DNA of 64,000 bases, taken from assembly GCF_900102525.1 (NCBI RefSeq), contig NZ_FNBZ01000003.1, forward strand, positions 372,001 to 436,000, read 5' to 3'. The position numbers and the translations under genes are program-made. The stretch is from Allobosea robiniae. GTDB taxonomy: Bacteria; Pseudomonadota; Alphaproteobacteria; Rhizobiales; Beijerinckiaceae. Shown here piece by piece: positions 14,823 through 43,222 of the stretch (positions within the stretch are counted from its first letter, which is position 1; every line of letters begins with the position of its first letter). The notes beneath the pieces are model-generated. The model saw only the letters and a list, made by a program, of their open reading frames with translations. It was not told where the DNA came from and made no database searches.

Positions 14823-14846
14823 GGCGCTTTTTGACGATCTTGAACC

Positions 14847-14870
14847 CGCGTCCCGCAGAAGCGGGATGCG
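14847..14870. terminator. Hairpin between convergent phaR and autotransporter genes
   Basis: Ten-base-pair stem CGCGTCCCGC / GCGGGATGCG with one G-U pair and an AGAA loop, followed by GTTTCT on the plus strand. It lies between two stop codons and probably acts for both. Confidence 0.6.
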
Positions 14871-14874
14871 GTTT

Positions 14875-17739
14875 CTACCAGCCGATCCTGATCCCGGCCC
14901 GCCCGGTGATGCTGTGGCTGTCGGCGAAATGGGCCAGGCTGGTCTGGGCCTCGACCTCGCCATAGAGCGCATAGCGGCCGGTTTCGTATTTCGCGCCGAG
15001 GCCGAGCCCACCCCAGAGCCGCTCTTCGCGGCTGGTTAGTGGCGTGCCGGCGAGATTTGCCGTCGTCCCGTCAAGGAATTCGTAGCGCAGGTTCGCGATG
15101 CCGTAGAGCGAGGCATTGACCTGCCGCCCCGCATCGTCGCGCCAGCTTCGCCGATAGTCGGCGGACAGGCCGAGCCGCCCGCGCAGGCTGTCGCCGTCGC
15201 CCAGGACTACGCGGGCGCCGAACGGATCGATGAAGCTGTCGGCGTCGATATGCGCGTAAGTCAGCTGGGCCTGCGGCGTCAGCGACCAGCCGTCCGACAG
15301 CGTGATGCGCTGCCCCAGTTCGAGCCCCAGCGCGTAGCCGAAGCCGGCCTTGCCCTTGGCGAGCTGGCGCCCGGCCGTCGTGGAGGACAGGTCGCTGTCG
15401 AACCAGTTGAGCTTCGTCTGCGCGTCGGCATAGAAGCCCGTCGCGCCATACCATGTCAGCGCCCCGCCGAAGCCGCTGCCCGCGGCCTTGATCCTGCCGC
15501 GGCCGAAGACCGAGGCGATATCGGCCAGCGCCTCGTCATGATGCAGCGAGACGCCGCCGACCAGCGTGCCGGCGTCATCAGCGAAAACCTGCCCGTCGGC
15601 GCCAGCCTGCAGGCGCCAGCTATCGATCATGTAGCTCGTGCCGGTCGTCGAGAAGCCCGGCGTGACGCGGCTATGGGCTGCATCGATGCGGGCCCAGATC
15701 GCACGGCCCGCCGCGTTCGACGTGTCGCCTGTCCGGCCGTCGAGGCGCTCGCCGACGCGCTGACGCAGGGTCTGGAGCTCATTCAGGCTCTGCAGGACCT
15801 GGCCATAGGCTTCATAGAGAGGCGTTCCCGGCTGGTAGATCGGGCCGATGACGGTTGGACCTGTCGATGGCGAGGTGGGAGTGGGCGGCGCCATATAGGC
15901 CGAACGCAGGTACCAGTCGCCATCGTTCGGGGTGCTGATGCCGTTCTTCTGCAAGCTGTAGGCATAGGCGCCGGCGACCACGGCCTGCTGCCCCTGGAAG
16001 ACGGTGTTGCCCTGGAGCGTGAAGACGCCGTTCGAGGCTCCGGCGACATCGACGACCTTGATGCCCTCGACGGTCGGCGCCCCGGCGCCGCCCTGGTTCA
16101 GCACCGTCACGAGGGTCGATCCCGCCGTGCTGCCGGTGATGACGAGGCGGTCGGACGGCGAGGCATCGCCGCCGAGCACGGTTTCGATCTCGAGCCTGCC
16201 GCCATTGCCGAGATAGTCGCCGTTGATCGTCAACGTGCCGATCGAATTGCCCGGCGCGATGGTGCCGCCCGGCTGGTTGATCGTGGCGCCGACCGTGCCG
16301 ATGCCCTGCAGGCGGCCGCCGATGACCTCCATCGTCCCGCCGAGAATGCCGTTCACGGCGAGCGTGCCGGCCAGCACGCTGCCGGCCCCGGTGAAGGTCG
16401 AGCCGCTGTCGCCGGTCAGCTCCAGCTTGCCGGCGCCATCCTTGATCAGCGCGCCCGCGCCGGTGAAGCTGGGAGACATGCCGATATCATGGCCATCCGT
16501 GTCGATGACGAGGCCGTTCGCGCCGATGGCAATGGTGCGCGTGTCGAAACCTGCGAAGAAGCCGGAATTGTCGGATGTGGCGCGCAGCAGGCCACCGTCG
16601 AAGGTGACGCTGACCGCGCCATCGCCTCCGAAGATCCCGCCGGTTTCCAGAACGCCGCGATTGCTCGTGGAGCCCTGTAGCAGCAGCGTCCCGCTGGCCC
16701 CCGAGGCGCTGCCGAGCAGGACACCGCCTTCGGCGCGGACGAGCCCGCCATTCTCGACCGTCAGCGAACCGGTTCCGACATTGCCGATGGTGAGGTTGTA
16801 TGGCGACATCGACCATTTCGAGCCCGTGCCCGTGACGGTGACGGTGCCGGTGTTGTTGGCGCCGATATAGCCCTGATTGCTGGTGGCGATTGCGCCATCC
16901 TCGATGCGCAAGGTGCCCACGTCGAAGCTGCCGACAGTCAATTGGCCGGCATTGTTCCAGGCCGTGCCCGCGCCGGTGAGCACGACATTGCCCTGACCGC
17001 TGCTGCCGACGAGGCCGTCCGCGCTCGAAACCGTCGCGCCGCCCTCGGCACGCAGGGTTCCGGCGCCGTACAGGCCGACGGTCAGCCGGCTGCTGTTCTG
17101 CCAGGAGGAGCCCGATCCGCTGACCAGTGCGTTGCCGCCGCCGCTGATGTTGCCGTTGATGCTTGAAACCCGGCCGCCAGCCAGGACGTTCAGCGTTCCC
17201 GCGCCATTGTAGCCGACATGGAGATCACCGGCGTTGGTCCATGTCGAGGCGCTGCCGCCGCTGCCGATCCCCGAAACCGTGACGGTGCCCTGGCTGCCGA
17301 GGTCAGCGGCGATGTAGGCGGTCAGGTTGCTGACCGTGCCGCCACCCAGAATGCTCAGGGAGCCGGTCCCGGACTGCCCGATGACGAGATCACCCGCGTT
17401 GGCCCAGGTGGACGCGTTGCCACTGCCGTCGGTACCCGAGGCCGTGACCGTGCCGTTGCTGCCCGCGCCATAGCCGATGGTACCCAAATCATTCGTCACG
17501 GTTCCGCCGGCCGTGATGTCGAGCTGGCCGAGGCCGGCATCGCCGACCGTGAGGTCGCTGCCGACCGTCCAGTTCGGTGACTGGGCGGGGCCCGGATTCA
17601 GATCGCCGCTGCCCGTGACCGATTGCGCGTGCGCCGGAAAGCTGTTGGCGCAGGCCAGTGCGGCGAGCGCGGTCGAGAGCAGCAGAGCTTGGCGACAATT
17701 GCGAGCGGCAATCGCGCTCTTCGTCACTCGTCTCGTCAA
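14875..17739 (-). CDS. Type Va autotransporter with W-repeat passenger
   Basis: A 954-residue secreted outer-membrane protein. An extended signal peptide ends near residue 38 (FPAHAQ). The passenger starts with about six modules of 46-55 residues, each opening with Trp and containing a (D/Q/R)L-x-(V/I)G and G-(T/S)L pattern, a beta-helix design. The C-terminal 270 residues (from about 685) form the autotransporter barrel, ending in Trp (RAGIRIGW). A linker rich in Pro and Thr (PPTPTSPSTGP) precedes the barrel. The TTG at 17739 has a GGGGGG-type ribosome site; a GTG at 17727 is an alternative. Passenger activity is unknown. Confidence 0.85.
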   Translation of the reverse strand: MTRRVTKSAIAARNCRQALLLSTALAALACANSFPAHAQSVTGSGDLNPGPAQSPNWTVGSDLTVGDAGLGQLDITAGGTVTNDLGTIGYGAGSNGTVTASGTDGSGNASTWANAGDLVIGQSGTGSLSILGGGTVSNLTAYIAADLGSQGTVTVSGIGSGGSASTWTNAGDLHVGYNGAGTLNVLAGGRVSSINGNISGGGNALVSGSGSSWQNSSRLTVGLYGAGTLRAEGGATVSSADGLVGSSGQGNVVLTGAGTAWNNAGQLTVGSFDVGTLRIEDGAIATSNQGYIGANNTGTVTVTGTGSKWSMSPYNLTIGNVGTGSLTVENGGLVRAEGGVLLGSASGASGTLLLQGSTSNRGVLETGGIFGGDGAVSVTFDGGLLRATSDNSGFFAGFDTRTIAIGANGLVIDTDGHDIGMSPSFTGAGALIKDGAGKLELTGDSGSTFTGAGSVLAGTLAVNGILGGTMEVIGGRLQGIGTVGATINQPGGTIAPGNSIGTLTINGDYLGNGGRLEIETVLGGDASPSDRLVITGSTAGSTLVTVLNQGGAGAPTVEGIKVVDVAGASNGVFTLQGNTVFQGQQAVVAGAYAYSLQKNGISTPNDGDWYLRSAYMAPPTPTSPSTGPTVIGPIYQPGTPLYEAYGQVLQSLNELQTLRQRVGERLDGRTGDTSNAAGRAIWARIDAAHSRVTPGFSTTGTSYMIDSWRLQAGADGQVFADDAGTLVGGVSLHHDEALADIASVFGRGRIKAAGSGFGGALTWYGATGFYADAQTKLNWFDSDLSSTTAGRQLAKGKAGFGYALGLELGQRITLSDGWSLTPQAQLTYAHIDADSFIDPFGARVVLGDGDSLRGRLGLSADYRRSWRDDAGRQVNASLYGIANLRYEFLDGTTANLAGTPLTSREERLWGGLGLGAKYETGRYALYGEVEAQTSLAHFADSHSITGRAGIRIGW

Positions 17740-17933
17740 TTTTCAGCCCCCCGGCCGATGGTGTCTCAACGTCGCCTTGCGCGATGGGTCCAGCGCCTAT
17801 TTCACCTGTTCAACGACGAATCAGCCACGGCACGAGCCGATAGATTGCTGTCCGCAGGTTAAGTGACAGTAACGAATTGGGCTCGCGTCGAGGCGGCCGC
17901 TCGGAAACGAGGGAAGGCTCGCGAGCGCCTGCC

Positions 17934-36477: not shown

Positions 36478-36589
36478 GTCATCCCGGGCGACCGAAGGGA
36501 GACCCGGGATCCATTCCGGAGCGCTTCCTTGGGAAGCTTCAGGCATGGATCCCGGATCTGCGCCACTTGCGTGGCTTGTCCGGGATGAC
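36478..36589. repeat. Bipartite GTCAT...ATGAC repeat, CCCGGG subtype, inside ser operon
   Basis: Ends GTCATCCCGGG and CCGGGATGAC are inverted; inner arms ATCCCGG and GGATCCAT/ATGGATCC pair across a GAAGC / GCTTC centre. The structure is longer (112 bp) than the other copies. It lies between serC and serA. Confidence 0.7.
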
Positions 36590-36609
36590 GGCGCGCGGGT
36601 GGAAAGCGC

Positions 36610-37788
36610 TTACGCCGCCTTCTTACCCAGGCCCGCCTTGGCCTCGGCGAAGGCATAGGCGATCCAGGGCAGCAGCGCCTTCACGTCGCGCGACTGGACG
36701 GTCGCGCCGCACCAGATGCGCAGGCCGGGAGGGGCGTCGCGGTAATGGCCGAGATCGTAGCCGGCGCCGGCCTTCTCGATGATCGAGACGACCTGCTTGG
36801 CGAAGGCCGCCTGCGCGTCCGCCGGCAGGGCGGTGACCGCAGGGTCGGTGAACTTCAGGCACACGCTCGTGTTCGAGCGTGTCTTCGGCTTCACGGCGAG
36901 GAAGTCGATCCAGTCGTTCTCGCGCACGAACTTGGCGATGACGCGGGCATTGCCGTCGGCGCGCTTCACCAGGCCGTCGAACCCGCCGACCTTCTGGGCC
37001 CATTCCAGCGCGTCGATATAGTCCTCGACCGCGAGCATGGAGGGGGTGTTGATGGTCTCGCCGGTGAAGATGCCCTCGATCAGCTTGCCGCCCGAGGTCA
37101 TGCGGAAGATCTTCGGCAGCGGCCAGGCCGGCTTGTAGCTTTCGAGCCGGGCGACGGCGCGCGGCGAGAGCACGATCATGCCATGCGCGGCCTCGCCGCC
37201 GAGCACCTTCTGCCAGGAGAAGGTGACGACATCGAGCTTGGGCCAATCGAGGCGCTGGGCGAAGGCGGCGGAGGTGGCGTCGCAGATGGTCAGCCCCTCG
37301 CGATCGTCAGCGATCCAGCTCGCGTCGACGACGCGCACGCCGGACGTGGTGCCGTTCCAGGTGAAGACGACGTCGCGGTTCTTCGTGTCGACCTTCCTGA
37401 GGTTCGGCAATTCGCCATAGGGCGCGTCGAAAGTGCGGACGTCAGTGAGCTTGAGCTGCTTGACGACATCGGTGACCCAGCCGGCGCCGAAGCTCTCCCA
37501 GCTGACCATGTCGACGCCGCGGGCGCCGAGCAGCGACCAGAGCGCCATCTCGACGGCGCCGGTATCGGAGGCCGGCACGATGCCGATGCGGTAATCGGCC
37601 GGAACCTGCAGCACCTCACGCGTCAGGTCGATCGCGCGCTTGAGCTTGTCCTTGCCGATCTTGGCGCGATGCGAGCGGCCGAGCGGGGCGTCGGAGAGGT
37701 TCTTGAGGGCCCAGCCGGGGCGCTTGGCGCAGGGGCCGGACGAGAAATTAGGCACGCGCGGACGCGTGGCCGGAGCAGTATTCGCCAT
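36610..37788 (-). CDS. serC: Phosphoserine aminotransferase
   Basis: It converts 3-phosphohydroxypyruvate to phosphoserine with PLP. The 392-residue protein is of the long alphaproteobacterial type ([18 protein letters not shown] at the start; PLP lysine in [14 protein letters not shown] near residue 195; SNTSVCLKF near 310). The ATG at 37788 gives this family start. Next upstream is a leader hairpin and then the A+T-rich island. serC and serA act in consecutive steps and share the strand. Confidence 0.95.
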
Positions 37789-37804
37789 CGATGTCTCCAT
37801 CCTT

Positions 37805-37845
37805 ACAGATGGGCGCGCCCCGTTGGGGGGGCGTGTCCCGTCGAT
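37805..37845 (-). promoter_or_regulatory. serC leader-like RNA hairpin
   Basis: On the minus strand between a possible TTGACT -35 box (near 37872) and serC, a stem CGCCCC / GGGGCG (loop CCAAC) is flanked by GGGACA and GCGCCCATCTGTAAGG before the start codon. Rfam lists a serC leader motif upstream of alphaproteobacterial serC genes. I recall the location but not the full consensus, so identity is tentative. Confidence 0.45.
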
Positions 37846-37905
37846 GGGGGTAGGATGGGGAGGGGCGGGAGTCAAGGGATGTGCCAAGACGCCCGCTAAG
37901 CGCAC

Positions 37906-39378
37906 CTATCGATTTAAATCGTCAATGTCTTTCCAAAGTGGATCAACGGAAGAACGAAGTTGCTCAAGAATAAGCCGTATTCGCGCCGTTTGGCTGCGTT
38001 GCGGAGCGTAAATCCAGCCTTCATCACCTTTGTGCCTATCAAGTATGCCTTCTCTCATCAATATGCTTATTATGGAATTCGACAATTTCCTTGAAGTTCC
38101 GCTGCCAAATCCTCTGATTAACGCTTCCTCTTTGCGGCCGGCGCCTTTTTGATTGAAGGTTTTCTTAAGTATGGCGAGCAATATTTCATGGGCCGGTGAC
38201 AGCCCAGCTCTTCTAATTTGCGATACGGTTTGTATCGCATCAAATTCGTCGACAATATCCAATTGTATCCATGCCGGTAATCCCGAGTAGGATGCCGCGC
38301 CAGAAACTTTACTGCAAAGAGAGGATCTTATTGTTAATTTATTAGGAGGAGAATTTGGTAGTATTATCCTTTCAAATGTTGAATCCGTAATATATAAATC
38401 ACTCAGAGGGGTTTCATTCAAGACAAATTCAGTAAACGTTCCTCCGTTTATCGTAATTCCTGACAAGCTGATTCCGTCAATTTCGACGCGACTCATGCTT
38501 GAGACGATATCGGAGGCTAAGGTTTTATTTGGCGAATTTGCCGCTCTATTTGCTAATTGTCGATATGTATCAATACGCCCCTTTATATCAGCTGCTAGGA
38601 TCGACTGTCCTAAGGGGGCGAGGGGATTCGACCACTGTTCCAAAAGAATGGATTTTCGGTGTGCCTCGTCTCGCTCGGACAGGGCTGACACATCTTTTGC
38701 TCTCAATCCATCCAAGATAAACATGTCTACAAACTGCCTATCTTGCGATTCTGCTCCAATTCGCCCCAGGCTTGGTAGGCGCTGCAGCATAACGGATGCT
38801 TCTTCAACGGGCAGCTGTCCGACAACTGCTTCGAATGCTTCCTGAAGATCTCGTTGAGAAATCGGGCCTACATTCGCTGGGCGAGTTCTCGTAATTCGGC
38901 TCAATGCAACAAATACTCTGTATATTGTTTCTTCATCGAAAAAAGTATTTATTCGAGAGTCTCTTTTGCAAACAACTTTTATAAAATGATTCCAGAATCC
39001 GACGCCATTATTCGTCGCGCCAAACATGCTTCCAAGTTCGTCGTCTGATAAAAGGGCGATTGTTTGGCATATCAGTGGTTTGCGCGGAAGCCACGATGGA
39101 AGTTCTGTATCTATTCCTGCAGCCTCAAAGTATGAATCCAATTCTTCGTTCGTAAATTCTTCTTTCACTTTGATAATAATCGAATTGGCTTTTGTGATAC
39201 CAATCGCCGACATCATCTCTTCATTCGATGAAAAGTAGTGCTCTCTGCCCGCAATTAAGCACCCTGATTTTGTCCGCAGCACTAAATCTTTCACGCCAGC
39301 CATTGCCTTGGCTCGCAACTGCCGCAGGCGACCCTCATCCGAGCTCCAAGATTGGCCCTCCAAGTTCATCGAAGCCAT
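37906..39378 (-). CDS. C-terminal part of NACHT STAND NTPase, separated by frameshift
   Basis: A 490-codon frame that continues the NACHT protein begun at 40144. Its first 60 residues (WSSDEGRLRQLRA, then CLIAGREHYFSSNEEM) match the segment that follows Walker B in intact NACHT proteins, including the sensor-like GREHYF. Then come helical domains, a short beta-helix-like stretch (SGITINGGTF, about 285-330) and a C-terminal winged-helix-like region. Removing one base in the overlap (39335-39378) fuses it to the upstream frame as FDELGGQSWSSDEG. Codon use is A+T-rich, unlike the neighbours. It is probably not translated alone. Confidence 0.6.
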   Translation of the reverse strand: MASMNLEGQSWSSDEGRLRQLRAKAMAGVKDLVLRTKSGCLIAGREHYFSSNEEMMSAIGITKANSIIIKVKEEFTNEELDSYFEAAGIDTELPSWLPRKPLICQTIALLSDDELGSMFGATNNGVGFWNHFIKVVCKRDSRINTFFDEETIYRVFVALSRITRTRPANVGPISQRDLQEAFEAVVGQLPVEEASVMLQRLPSLGRIGAESQDRQFVDMFILDGLRAKDVSALSERDEAHRKSILLEQWSNPLAPLGQSILAADIKGRIDTYRQLANRAANSPNKTLASDIVSSMSRVEIDGISLSGITINGGTFTEFVLNETPLSDLYITDSTFERIILPNSPPNKLTIRSSLCSKVSGAASYSGLPAWIQLDIVDEFDAIQTVSQIRRAGLSPAHEILLAILKKTFNQKGAGRKEEALIRGFGSGTSRKLSNSIISILMREGILDRHKGDEGWIYAPQRSQTARIRLILEQLRSSVDPLWKDIDDLNR

Positions 39379-40144
39379 CCAGCAGAAGCACGAGGCTGTC
39401 CCTGTTGAGTGCCTTGACGCATGATCCGGCTAATTCGTCGAGCCCCAGCACATAGGCGCCTCGGCGGACTATCTCATCTCCGCGATCAAGGCCCCAGCAT
39501 TCGCGGAGGTTTACAGCGAATGGAAATTGGAAGGTAAGGTCCCACGTTTCCGCAAGTTTTGAAAACGATTCCCTGACGCATCTGCTTTTTCCAGATCCGT
39601 ATTCTCCGAGCAGAACAATGTTTTTCCCTGACAGTAGTAATTCGCAGATATCTGCTATTTCTATATCTTTTCCATTATCGATGCGCTGATACGATACCGG
39701 AACATATCGTACGGTATCGCTTTCGCCGGTCAACGGATTGACGGAGCTTCCAAACGAGGCTGAGAGACGCGCATTCTTGTATTTAGGGAACTGAAAGAAT
39801 AAGGCTGCAAATTGGCCTGCTGATGCTACGGTTATCTTTGCGGCGGCGGCTGCGTCAATCATTGCTTGGGTTGGTTTTTTGCTAAGTACTATGTATCCTC
39901 TAAGAAGTACCCCATCTGCCATAAGAGTTTGTTTAGCTAAAATTAGTCGACCTATTCCCTGGCGGACCTTGTCTAAATCATTTTGTTGGCTTATTTCTAT
40001 CGCAATTGTCTCTTGATCATTTCGTTCGATTACGCCATCAAAATTTACGCCAGCTATACGTCCTTGCGTGCAATTCTGCCCGAATATCAACGTTGCGATA
40101 CCGCGAATCTGATCCTCAAAATTCTGCCACTTCGGTTGAATCAT
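39335..40144 (-). CDS. N-terminal part of NACHT STAND NTPase with nuclease-like domain
   Basis: A 269-codon frame with a strong ribosome site (GAGGAGG, 6 nt before the ATG at 40144). Residues 1-125 look like a PD-(D/E)xK fold (NFDGVIERNDQ, then IAIEIS). Walker A is GEYGSGKSR near residue 175 and Walker B LVLLLDGFDEL near 255, the NACHT form. The frame stops 8 residues after Walker B because of a frameshift. Homologous architectures are bacterial anti-phage STAND proteins that sense a phage product and trigger nuclease activity; that role is inferred. The A+T-rich composition marks horizontal transfer. Confidence 0.7.
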   Translation of the reverse strand: MIQPKWQNFEDQIRGIATLIFGQNCTQGRIAGVNFDGVIERNDQETIAIEISQQNDLDKVRQGIGRLILAKQTLMADGVLLRGYIVLSKKPTQAMIDAAAAAKITVASAGQFAALFFQFPKYKNARLSASFGSSVNPLTGESDTVRYVPVSYQRIDNGKDIEIADICELLLSGKNIVLLGEYGSGKSRCVRESFSKLAETWDLTFQFPFAVNLRECWGLDRGDEIVRRGAYVLGLDELAGSCVKALNRDSLVLLLDGFDELGGPILELG

Positions 40145-40412
40145 TATTTCCTCCTCGGTTCCATCAAAGGACGAGCAAGAAGGGCGATTGGCAAGGCCAA
40201 ATTTCATAGAACTTTATGGTTGGCTCGCTGTGTCGCTCCTAATCGGAGGTAGGCAGCATAGGAGGAGCGCTGCTTTTCTAGCTAGTAGGGAATGTCTGTA
40301 GCGACTGTGGTTTGACGCTCTACCTCGACAAAGGAGGGAATTCTGCCGCGCCTCTAACTCGATTGTTCAAAGTTCTGCACCTCAACGCGACTGACGGAGC
40401 TCGCGCACGTCC

Positions 40413-40521
40413 CGTAAAGTTCCCGAACAATTCGCCCGAGAATTTGAAGGCCGCTAGGCCAAGTGCTGACCAAGAGCTGGCGGCGTTCTGGTCCGACATC
40501 TACGCCAATGTCGTTTTGAAG
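40413..40521 (+). pseudogene. Decayed copy of the gene at 41651
   Basis: This 109-bp stretch matches codons 3-40 of the small gene at 41651 at about 80 percent identity. PEQFAREFEGR is followed by a stop (TAG) where the intact gene has Lys, then another stop, a 2-bp deletion, and then FWSDIYANVVLK against FWPNIIANAVLK in the intact copy. It has no further coding extension. Confidence 0.6.
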
Positions 40522-41124
40522 CCGATGGGGCACCGGGAACCCCTCTCCCGTTGATCGCTGTCGCGAAGTTTTATCCCCGCCCTCCCACACCGCTCCTATC
40601 CTCACCGCACCTCGTCCCCGAGGGGCAGCCATCCGGAGGTATGCCGTTGGCGGGGCGGGGGCTGCGCCTGCGGGTGGGGTTGCGACCCACTCCCGGGAGG
40701 CTTCGGGGCACCGCCCTGGGGGTACTACGGCCCCTGTGCGAGGAGCTCGCTGGAAGGCATGGCGGCACCGCATCTGCGGGGCCAGGACGCGACAAGGCCG
40801 GCATCGGACCGAAAATGGCTTGGCCCGTTTCGGGATCATCCGCTGCACGAGACAAAGGAGATCGCGCAAGCGTCTCTGCCGAACTGGCGTCGAGGCCCGC
40901 AGGTCAGCGAAACGCCCTGCCGTATAAGCGCGGCCCGGAGACTGAAGAACGCCGGCAAGCGGAGCGCCACGGGGCGTGCGGATGGTGGCTCAATCCATCC
41001 GCGCCGCATCCTGGCTCAATGGAAGCGGCCGATACCCCCCCGCGCCTCGCGGCGCTCCGCTGCCCCTCATCGATCAACGAACGCGGCAACGCGGGCGGCG
41101 AAGATGCATGCACGCAGACCGGCC
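40522..41124. other. Gene-poor stretch right of the island
   Basis: About 600 bp of GC-rich sequence (with A+T-rich patches near 40560 and 40820) without a frame that looks coding on either strand. Open frames exist but have no ribosome sites, recognisable domains or consistent codon use. It may be remnant mobile DNA; nothing specific was identified. Confidence 0.4.
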
Positions 41125-41214
41125 GTCATGCTCGGGCTTGTCCCGAGCACCCACGTCTTGAACACGACCTGCATCGGCGAAGACGTGGATGGTCGCCGCA
41201 AGGGCGACCATGAC
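41125..41214. repeat. Bipartite GTCAT...ATGAC repeat, ACGTC subtype
   Basis: Left hairpin ATGCTCGGG-CTTGT-CCCGAGCAC, central stem CCACGTCTT / AAGACGTGG, right hairpin ATGGTCGCC-GCAAG-GGCGACCAT. Same design as 7848. Confidence 0.75.
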
Positions 41215-41234
41215 GGGGAGCGTAACGTTTCCGC

Positions 41235-41459
41235 TCAATCCCCCGTCATCGTCATTTCGGCGTCGATCGCCTTCATCTTCGGATTGGCGGCGCAGAAGGC
41301 CCTGATTTTGTTCGCGACGGGGGCTGAGTATTCGCTCTTGCGGTGGGCGCCGGATTTCAGCCAGTCGGCGCAGCTCTGCTCCCGGTCGGTGATCCGGGCG
41401 GCGGCGGGCGCGGCGAGGAAAAGGCCGGCGAGAGCGGCGAGCAAGGCGAGGCGGGTCAT
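41235..41459 (-). CDS. Small secreted hypothetical protein
   Basis: A 74-residue protein with a clear signal peptide (MTRLALLAALAGLFLAAPAAA, cut near residue 21) and a mature part of about 53 residues containing two Cys (EQSCADWL and AFCAANP) that could form one disulfide. The family is not recognised. The start at 41459 is chosen for the signal peptide. Confidence 0.6.
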   Translation of the reverse strand: MTRLALLAALAGLFLAAPAAARITDREQSCADWLKSGAHRKSEYSAPVANKIRAFCAANPKMKAIDAEMTMTGD

Positions 41460-41650
41460 GGTCTGGTCCTGAACGGGCGGCCGCATCACAGGCTTCGCCT
41501 CGGGCGCCGCTCCTGCCTTGCGTCGCGCCTGCTTGCAAATGCGATTGTCGCAGGCCCGATGCGCGGGCAGGGCAGTGCGGTCGAAGAGGGCAGGCAGGGC
41601 TGCGCATTTCGTGATAGGCAGCGGCTCGATCCGAAACAGGTGAAGAGACC

Positions 41651-41911
41651 ATGGCCAAGAAGACCCCCGAACAGCTCGCCCAGGAATTCGAGGGCCGCAA
41701 GGCCAAGGGGCTGGCCAAGGGCGGGGCGGCGTTCTGGCCGAACATCATCGCCAATGCCGTGCTGAAGCTCACCCAGCAGCGGGCCGAGATCACGCCCGAG
41801 ACGCTGATCGAGATGATCGAGCGCGAGGCGCCGACGCTGGAGATCACGGTTCGGTCTGGCGCGGCGGAGGCTGTCGCGCGCCTGAAGCAGGCCGTCGCCA
41901 AAGGTTCGTGA
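41651..41911 (+). CDS. Small hypothetical protein, intact parent of the 40413 remnant
   Basis: An 86-residue cytosolic protein, Lys/Glu-rich at the N-terminus (KKTPEQLAQEFEGRKAKGLA) with a helical middle (FWPNIIANAVLKLTQQRAEI) and a regular ETLIEMIEREAPTLEI stretch. Function not recognised. The presence of a decayed second copy 1.2 kb away shows that it is a real gene family. AGGTGAAGAG precedes the ATG. It ends 1 bp before the fucU stop on the other strand. Confidence 0.6.
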   Translation: MAKKTPEQLAQEFEGRKAKGLAKGGAAFWPNIIANAVLKLTQQRAEITPETLIEMIEREAPTLEITVRSGAAEAVARLKQAVAKGS

Positions 41912-41912
41912 G

Positions 41913-42368
41913 CTAGCCCGGCTCGCCGGCGATGACGCCCTTGCGCAGCAGGAAGCAGCCATAGGGCCGGGGATCGCCGACCTGCACGACCGCGAAAGCC
42001 CGCCGCGCCTGATCGTAGAAGGCGAAGCGCTCGAGGCGAGCGAGCGGCGAGGAGCGGCCGAGCGCCTTGTCGATTTCGGACTGGACCGCGCGCTGGACAT
42101 CGGGGATCGCGGCGGCATCGCCGACCACTTCCATGCGCCGGAGCGGTGCGGGCTCGAAATCGTCGATCGGCAGCACCGAGAGGATGGCGCGGGCGGCGCG
42201 CTGCATCGTCAGGCCGGGCAGGCGGATCAGGCGCCCGCTGGTGGTCGCGCTGGCGATGGTCTCCGCCGGGTGGTTGGCATCGACCAGCGCGAGGTCGTCG
42301 CCATGGCCCATCGCGGCGAGCACCCAGAGCAGGTCGGCGGAGAGGACAGGGTCGAGATTTTTCAGCAT
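41913..42368 (-). CDS. fucU: L-fucose mutarotase (FucU/RbsD family)
   Basis: It interconverts sugar anomers before catabolism. The 151-residue protein has MGHGDDLALVDANHP (His22, Asp30 at the active site), a central PDVQRAV segment and the FYDQARRAFAVVQVGDPRPYGCFLLRKGV-type C-terminus of FucU proteins. It overlaps the upstream amidohydrolase gene by 7 bp, so the two are translated together. Confidence 0.88.
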   Translation of the reverse strand: MLKNLDPVLSADLLWVLAAMGHGDDLALVDANHPAETIASATTSGRLIRLPGLTMQRAARAILSVLPIDDFEPAPLRRMEVVGDAAAIPDVQRAVQSEIDKALGRSSPLARLERFAFYDQARRAFAVVQVGDPRPYGCFLLRKGVIAGEPG

Positions 42369-43222
42369 GACGGGCGGCGGCCCCTCTTCGTCAGGTAGAT
42401 GCGGGCGGCGTTGCCGCCGAAGATCGCGGCGCGCTCGGGTTCAGTGAGCGTCGCGGTGAGGCGCTCAGTGGCGGCAAGCCATTGGTCGTAGCTGGCGGCG
42501 AGCGTCGCGACCGGCCAGTCGCTGCCCCAGAGCAGGCGCTCCGGCCCGAAACAGGCCAGCAGCTGCGCGACGGCCGGCGCCAGTGTCGCCTCGCGCCAGC
42601 CGGGCGCAGCCTCGGTGACGAGGCCGGAGAGTTTGCAGGTCGTGTTCGGCCTCGCCGCCAGCGCCGCGATGCCGCCGCGCCAGGCGGAGAGGTCGGCGCC
42701 GGCGAGGTCGGGTTTGGCGCCGTGGTCGATGACGACGGGCAATTCCGTCTCGCGCTCCAGCAGCGTGAGGAGGGCGGGGATCTGCGGCGGCTTCACCAGC
42801 GCGTCGAAGACGAGGCCGTGCTCTCTGAGCGCGGCGAAGGCGGGGGCGAGGGCGGGCTTCGCGAGCCAGCCGGGATCGGGGATGTCCTGCACCATGGGCC
42901 TCAAGCCGACAAGCAGCGGATCGGCGGCGAGGGCTGCGATGCGGGCAGGGGCGTCGGGCGCGTCGAAATCCGTCCAGCCGACGACGCCTGCGACGAAGGG
43001 CGTGGCGGCGGCGATGGCGAGCAGGTGATGCGTCTCGGCCTCGGTCGGCGCGGCCTGGACGAGGATGGTCGATGCGATGTCGTGCTGTGCCAGCAGCGGG
43101 GCGAGGTCGGCAGGTTCGAAATCGCGATGGATGGGGCCGAGCGCCGGCGTCAGCCAGCCATAGTCGCCGCGGGCGAGGCGCCAGAAATGCTGGTGGGAAT
43201 CGATGCGGGGCGGGCTCGTCAC
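42362..43222 (-). CDS. Amidohydrolase, L-fuconolactonase-like
   Basis: A 286-residue TIM-barrel lactonase of the amidohydrolase-2 family. DSHQHFW (His10, His12), GWTDFDAPDA, VIDHGAKPD and LLWGSDWPV (catalytic Asp) are the marks of L-fuconolactone/rhamnonolactone hydrolases. Its coupling to fucU and nearness to a sugar importer and an aldolase support action on a sugar lactone. The exact sugar (fucose, rhamnose, galactose or arabinose series) is not resolved. Confidence 0.85.
   Translation of the reverse strand: MTSPPRIDSHQHFWRLARGDYGWLTPALGPIHRDFEPADLAPLLAQHDIASTILVQAAPTEAETHHLLAIAAATPFVAGVVGWTDFDAPDAPARIAALAADPLLVGLRPMVQDIPDPGWLAKPALAPAFAALREHGLVFDALVKPPQIPALLTLLERETELPVVIDHGAKPDLAGADLSAWRGGIAALAARPNTTCKLSGLVTEAAPGWREATLAPAVAQLLACFGPERLLWGSDWPVATLAASYDQWLAATERLTATLTEPERAAIFGGNAARIYLTKRGRRPSC

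Follow-up and report, generated by a model that had tools for sequence, protein, structure and literature searches.

A frameshifted nuclease–NACHT gene of Allobosea robiniae, likely anti-phage, in a variable slot bordered by serC and a repeated predicted RNA element

Our analysis of a 64,000-nucleotide stretch of Allobosea robiniae DNA (GCF_900102525.1, contig NZ_FNBZ01000003.1, positions 372,001 to 436,000; hereafter the window, numbered from its first letter) centers on an A+T-rich island beside the core gene serC. We consider it likely that the island is a frameshifted PD-(D/E)xK–NACHT gene of the STAND (signal transduction ATPases with numerous domains) type, that the gene is anti-phage and that it fills a variable slot between serC and a repeated predicted RNA element. 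The split, the conserved active-site residues and a slot with changing cargo are observed directly, and the domain folds are seen as structure models. We infer a defence function, and a turnover of cargo through recombination, either within the conserved flanks or from one copy of the element to another.

The minus strand from 40144 to 37906 reads as one gene spread over two overlapping frames with a single frame switch, and its 2239 bases amount to 3n+1. Its parts are as follows.

39335–40144, minus strand: N-part frame (open over 39335–40207), covering the nuclease domain, a linker, the P-loop and Walker B before the frame is lost; placed from the open reading frame (ORF), the relatives' alignment and an AlphaFold2 (AF2) model
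37906–39378, minus strand: C-part frame with the remaining NACHT core, a helical region, a beta-solenoid and a C-terminal helix-and-strand end; placed from the ORF and the model of the relative P0002
About 39350–39362, minus strand: frame-change site, placed by homology moving between frames against 16 relatives and by the gene length of 3n+1
39794–40144, minus strand: PD-(D/E)xK nuclease domain, residues 1–117 (D36 near 40038, E50 near 39996, K59 near 39969)
39584–39607, minus strand: NACHT P-loop GEYGSGKS (G180, G183, K186 and S187 each in 83/83 aligned rows)
39365–39385, minus strand: NACHT Walker B LLDGFDE (D256, D259 and E260 each in 83/83)
39232–39249, minus strand: GREHYF motif within the NACHT core, nearly invariant among aligned relatives

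Translation of the N-part most likely starts at the ATG at 40144, behind a Shine-Dalgarno-like GAGGAGG; the C-part frame has its own ATGs at 39378 and 39369 and is open for 490 codons. Because the 16 relatives match the N-part through the Walker B stretch DGFDELG and the C-part from the next residues, a single frame change can be placed in that short interval, in line with the original prediction that one frameshift splits one gene. A comparison with intact relatives, set beforehand, points the same way: all 16 are contiguous across the split, and among the 120 listed of the 409 proteins found with the C-part, on which lengths were counted, 93 measure 740–755 residues. Lengths outside that range were found for the remaining 27, which include the window's C-part (P0010 has 502, P0057 506 and P0102 491 residues, for instance), possibly in some cases through cuts at contig ends. 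The gene is single copy in the genome, and the compositional island noticed at the outset is real, with 45.6% G+C in the gene against 66.4% and 69.9% in the flanks (35.0–37.8 and 40.6–43.4 kb) and 66.7% in the whole window.

Modelling and conservation uphold the PD-(D/E)xK-like N-terminus that had been proposed. The AF2 model of the N-part (predicted local distance difference test, pLDDT, 91.2) begins with a PD-(D/E)xK nuclease fold that has the alpha-beta-beta-beta-alpha-beta core of the superfamily, and D36, E50 and K59 are kept in 83, 80 and 81 of the 83 rows, respectively. In the active site, E-x-[ST] replaces E-x-K, the lysine having moved into the next helix, nine residues past the glutamate. 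The NACHT ATPase motifs also stand, with every key P-loop and Walker B residue invariant and the Pfam NACHT model above its cut-off in four of five relatives scanned; it falls below for P0002 and for the N-part itself (E 6.5e-5, 23.3 against 26.7 bits). GREHYF does lie beyond the frame change, as had been said, but it sits inside the NACHT ATPase core and is not a separate C-terminal sensor. The intact P0002 models as a nuclease, a NACHT/NLR (NOD-like receptor) core, a small beta-solenoid and a helix-and-strand end, so that in this model effector, NTPase and sensor follow one another in one chain, the putative sensor being assigned by position alone; in the window copy that order is broken. 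An NCBIfam scan of the two gene halves found nothing, and a PDB sequence search with P0002 gave one chance-level match (E 0.54).

The combination of nuclease and NACHT is, as the original prediction held, that of bacterial STAND anti-phage proteins. bNACHT25 and bNACHT32 (clade 6) have an N-terminal PD-(D/E)XK nuclease, a central NACHT domain and a C-terminal sensing half; DNA is degraded upon infection with phage MS2, and the substitution D48A abolishes defence (PMC12169576). Set against those descriptions, the family studied here is distinguished by its active-site lysine, moved into a helix, and by a C-terminal half predicted to contain a small beta-solenoid and a helix-and-strand end. bNACHT25 and bNACHT32 also have NCH1, for which none of five relatives here gave a Pfam match at E ≤ 1, the presence of that model in the library being unconfirmed. 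The NACHT system described in the DefensePredictor paper is metallophosphatase-linked and so has a different effector (PMC13092281). AVAST (Avs) proteins share the STAND ATPase, and Avs4 is the best Foldseek match of our model, but TM-scores are low (0.30 by query), which suggests at most a common ATPase-type core, and the Avs4 chain, with 1534 residues, is about twice as long as our protein. Effectors of nuclease type and a tetratricopeptide repeat-like sensor are features of Avs proteins. Animal NLRs such as NLRC4, NAIP5, NLRP3 and NOD2 have leucine-rich repeats and death folds, whereas here a nuclease replaces the death-fold domain and the model is without leucine-rich repeats.

By this architecture and by analogy with bNACHT25 and bNACHT32, infection would be sensed in intact relatives by the C-terminal half (helices, small beta-solenoid, helix-and-strand end); assembly of the NACHT ATPase would follow, and the N-terminal nuclease would then cut DNA and so stop the infected cell. 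In the window copy the frame changes just past Walker B and severs the nuclease and half of the ATPase from the rest; barring a sequencing error at this point, the system has probably lost its function.

Of 7999 proteins scored, the 409, which include that of the window, passed E ≤ 0.001; an alignment search gave 625. Methylocella, Sphingopyxis, Novosphingobium, Bradyrhizobium, Rhizobium and Shinella are among the sources named. A plasmid of Erwinia persicina carries one relative (38% identical) and Pseudomonas phage Haddon another (28% identical over 90%). The nearest full-length relative among the matches listed is 72% identical, and the N-part reaches 76% identity to a relative. A search of 100 related genomes for the protein returned one copy, distant (24%) and in another family, and the gene therefore probably came by horizontal transfer, with no sign of a vertical history in the genus among these sequences. 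The neighboring SerA matches that of an uncultured Bosea at 98% identity over 83% of its length, which makes Bosea the likely genus. The phage Haddon gene (L174, 3983–6283) is annotated 'hypothetical protein' and stands about 1.7 kb downstream of an excisionase gene. P0006 is a relative with other sequence in its N-terminal part and a precomputed match to PF01609, a transposase family; it is apparently an insertion junction.

The gene occupies a slot whose edges could be placed by comparing serC-upstream stretches of 53 genomes; both edges were found in 32 relatives, giving 33 slots with that of the window.

37877–40570, no strand: variable cassette slot, filled here by the split gene; placed by the homology break in 32 relatives
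37870–37876, minus strand: serC −35-like sequence CTTGACT, one slot edge, where GAGTCAAG is conserved
37792–37843, minus strand: serC leader RF00517 (E 1.4e-12)
36610–37788, minus strand: serC, the core gene adjoining the slot, found in 56/61 genus genomes, its own included

Homology to the window stops at 37875–37903 and restarts at 40555–40608 in the 32 relatives, with 390–3645 bp between. At the serC side, 31 of these 32 keep GAGTCAAG, the −35-like serC sequence in reverse reading, as far as the edge itself, and L055 has GAGTCAAT. All 32 same-genus genomes hold other, A+T-richer DNA in the slot: slot DNA is 38–57% G+C in 33/33 slots, the window included, and a 250-bp stretch of ≤50% G+C is present in 31 of the 32 relatives' slots. 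Along the whole window, synteny breaks at the serC slot in 5/5 relatives, and this is the only break below 50% G+C. Conserved flanks with differing cargo, by which hotspots are recognized, are thus found in the 33 slots. There is no tRNA in the 64-kb window that could serve as an integration target. One-ended transposition of the IS91-like kind was considered, since the serC edge reads CAAG, an IS91-like target preference, and was rejected as the edges at other loci do not. Within the slot, about 100 bp at 40422–40522 resemble the start of a small gene at 41651–41911 and look like a decayed copy or an old cargo remnant. A second synteny break (14826–17926, in 5/5 relatives) is G+C-rich in the window and holds a 954-residue minus-strand ORF (14875–17739).

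Cargo was scanned with Pfam in 27 of the 32 relatives' slots (30 proteins), and 17 of those (20 proteins) were also scanned with PADLOC.

L036, L037, L057, L060: AriA- or OLD-like ATPases
L039: DRT9 (E 1.8e-154)
L040: PD-T4-6-like kinase
L043: AlbA
L045: PD-Lambda-2
L046: PDC-M34
L047: PDC-S20
L053: PD-Lambda-5
L055: SIR2-nSTAND
L056: another NACHT protein
L063: GmrSD
L065: ApeA
L069: Mrr
L038, L041, L042 (DUF3800), L044, L050, L051, L054, L058 (HAD), L059 (DUF2971), L061, L076 (DUF488): no clear defence family

Defence-type families occur in 16/27 scanned slots by Pfam or PADLOC, a classing made partly by judgement and without a random-gene control; PADLOC alone was positive in 10/17. Of the five slots outside the scan, L048 and L068 have DUF3800 in common with L042, L075 has PD-Lambda-2 in common with L045, L067 shows 27% identity to L063, and no ORF was kept for L073. 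At blastp E < 1e-5, cargo is common to slots in four groups only (L042/L048/L068, L045/L075, L063/L067 and a weak ATPase pair, L057/L060).

Both nuclease–NACHT proteins (PMC12169576) and core-gene defence hotspots (PMC10250203) are already known. In the latter, cDHS1 and cDHS2 of Pseudomonas aeruginosa likewise have fixed core-gene flanks and varying defence cargo; the slot here is unlike them in its short length, one or few genes, its serC promoter-like edge and its border of repeated predicted RNA. Searches among open-licence papers turned up neither a serC hotspot or Bosea defence locus nor any hotspot with a repeated structured RNA at its border. The serC slot appears to be a defence hotspot, with an undescribed RNA element as its marker.

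That element forms the far border of the slot.

40571–40612, plus strand: promoter-like stretch, the conserved outer slot edge, CTTATCCCC followed by a TATAMT-like box
40614–41110, plus strand: predicted structured RNA element, multi-copy, with arms within 40614–41072 and then a 3' hairpin-like stretch

In other families the promoter-like stretch reads CTTATCCCCGC with TTACAAT, or TTGACA. A consensus promoter scan did not pick up 40571–40612, and a promoter and terminator scan of the slot region found no more than in shuffles. The predicted RNA has long complementary terminal arms, GAGGGGCAGC and GCTGCCCCTC, and RNAalifold predicts 85 pairs for it, 11 of them changed on both sides. Across 25 copies of the 5' domain, 95.0% of the cells for 37 pairs are paired, and 38 cells have changes on both sides, whereas shuffles give 17.4 ± 3.0 (0/500 reach 38) and slid versions ≤16, with the reservation that the structure was partly derived from the same sequences. 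Pair count and pair-type measures were not above shuffles (5 against 5.1 and 21 against 21.9). Rfam 15 has no match at the element at E ≤ 0.1 over 36500–42500, nor at E ≤ 1 in seven loci that include diverged copies; its matches in 36500–42500 are the serC leader and a sub-threshold mir-598 at 41192–41267, neither at the element. The sequence comparisons thus predict a dispersed structured RNA that is multi-copy, covarying and Rfam-negative. By DNA it is found in 45/61 genus genomes, mostly in several copies (as a rule, at most eight candidates were scored per genome). A DNA search of 40 genomes of other genera, with no hits, had suggested a genus-only spread, which an RNA model overturned by finding the element in three of 248 other genomes of the order (E 1.8e-5 to 6.2e-4), with compensating changes in the helices, and three copies in this genome. 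An initial covariance model, R1, built on an automatic fold of a truncated element, was replaced by R2 with helices from the full-length fold. In the genome G288 both listed copies lie at contig ends (C40 and C41), as repeats do. Just beyond the element, 41124–41215 is a dispersed inverted-repeat sequence resembling repetitive extragenic palindromes, with copies elsewhere in relatives' stretches.

Away from serC, A+T-rich DNA accompanies the element on one side only. Counting a 250-bp window of ≤50% G+C within 2.5 kb of a copy, the first 20 non-serC copies had such DNA on the 5' side in 13 cases and on the 3' side in none, and a second 20, picked before looking and judged by the same rule, gave seven and none (Fisher P 0.008 between sides). 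The 40 copies combined (L115–L134, L152 and L154–L173 hold copies) give 20 and 0, to be read with the caution that a locus shared by several species does not yield independent copies; the base rate of A+T-rich windows was 0/121 tiles of five relatives, serC slot excluded. In this genome, 3/3 copies have A+T-rich cargo on the 5' side. A cargo scan of nine of the first 13 loci (10 proteins), leaving out L116, L117, L121, L129 and the second set, found among others DRT8 (E 2.9e-158), PDC-S21, a methyltransferase with a DndB-like protein, SIR2-nSTAND and a RES-domain protein; L125 and L134 gave nothing, and L127 and L130 weak matches only. At L152 (3239–5968), an A+T-rich 909-residue gene between a gene that is UvrA-like by eye and the third element copy is a defence candidate, with what we take to be a GHKL-like ATPase motif. 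In another family, a diverged copy at L150 has on its 5' side A+T-rich DNA that encodes an ATPase, ParA-like by eye, and a 235-residue partner. The link weakens beyond the genus: in 250-bp tiles, the 5' side was A+T-rich for 1/1 copy in G296 and 0/1 in G288, and two further copies had no judgeable 5' side.

Several results weigh against a defence gene in a slot marked by the element. By Foldseek alone the nuclease part has no match at E ≤ 0.001; PADLOC gave 0 matches at E ≤ 1 for the two gene halves and weak ones only for five relatives (best E 0.005); and none of the literature found reports phage defence by a member of the family. The 11/27 scanned slots without a clear defence family count likewise, under the same partly judged classing, as do the possibility of a read error at the break, the A+T-rich DNA upstream of serC in 5/16 loci without the element (three more being too short to judge) and G200, of another family, in which 0/4 copies with a judgeable 5' side are A+T-rich there.

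The alternative that survives best, to which we give an even chance, is that the RNA element plays no part: it would be a repeat or an RNA gene whose promoter side tolerates insertions, and cargo would move by ordinary homologous recombination in the core flanks. The far slot edges favor this, lying at functional limits (the serC −35-like sequence and, at two other loci, at or by the neighbor's stop codon) with no common attachment sequence, and the element is not required for the slot, as those 5/16 serC loci show. Yet the strictly 5' position of A+T-rich DNA speaks for the element, as does its presence at serC in 34/34 relatives with the element (L052 and L062, outside the 32, included), though loci with and without it differ in kinship, uncorrected, and the A+T cut was slightly unlike that of the slot count.

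A sequencing or assembly error at the frame change, leaving the organism with an intact, working gene, falls somewhat short of even chances. There is one lesion only in 2.2 kb, both parts align full length with relatives, the N-part closely, and the genome is a 21-contig draft; however, its estimated completeness of 99.99% speaks against many indel errors, and against five relatives 251/306 ORFs are covered in one frame with eight apparent frame changes, some of which may be antisense or fused ORFs. Of the three fates first offered for the gene, we give real weight to both loss and misreading. It is unlikely that the family serves another conflict than phage defence, such as plasmid exclusion or prophage maintenance, as its members in a phage genome near an excisionase gene and on a plasmid might suggest, for defence genes are common on phages and plasmids. 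The slot's other cargo is rich in anti-phage families, and the layout is that of bNACHT25 and bNACHT32 (PMC12169576). The remaining fate, phase variation, is highly improbable, together with programmed frameshifting or two cooperating polypeptides: the C-part does have its own ATGs and long open frame, but there is no repeat tract at the split, which interrupts the ATPase core after Walker B and before GREHYF, where the aligned relatives are contiguous.

We thus favor a broken anti-phage gene in an exchangeable slot, and the family it belongs to, named by none of the protein libraries scanned, joins the nuclease–NACHT proteins with conserved residues that can be tested. The slot matters more than the gene. 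We put forward tentatively, and think rather unlikely as a whole, that a dispersed structured RNA in Bosea and some relatives marks, and perhaps builds, exchangeable anti-phage slots, each copy keeping its cargo on the promoter side and species, perhaps also copies, trading that cargo; the split gene would then be a spent cartridge. A scan along the 5' side of this one RNA element could guide us to new defence genes across the genus, because cargo of unassigned family shares its place with DRT, SIR2-STAND, GmrSD and Mrr genes. If the RNA does help to move cargo, it would go some way to explaining the exchange of single defence genes at sites that show no integrase.
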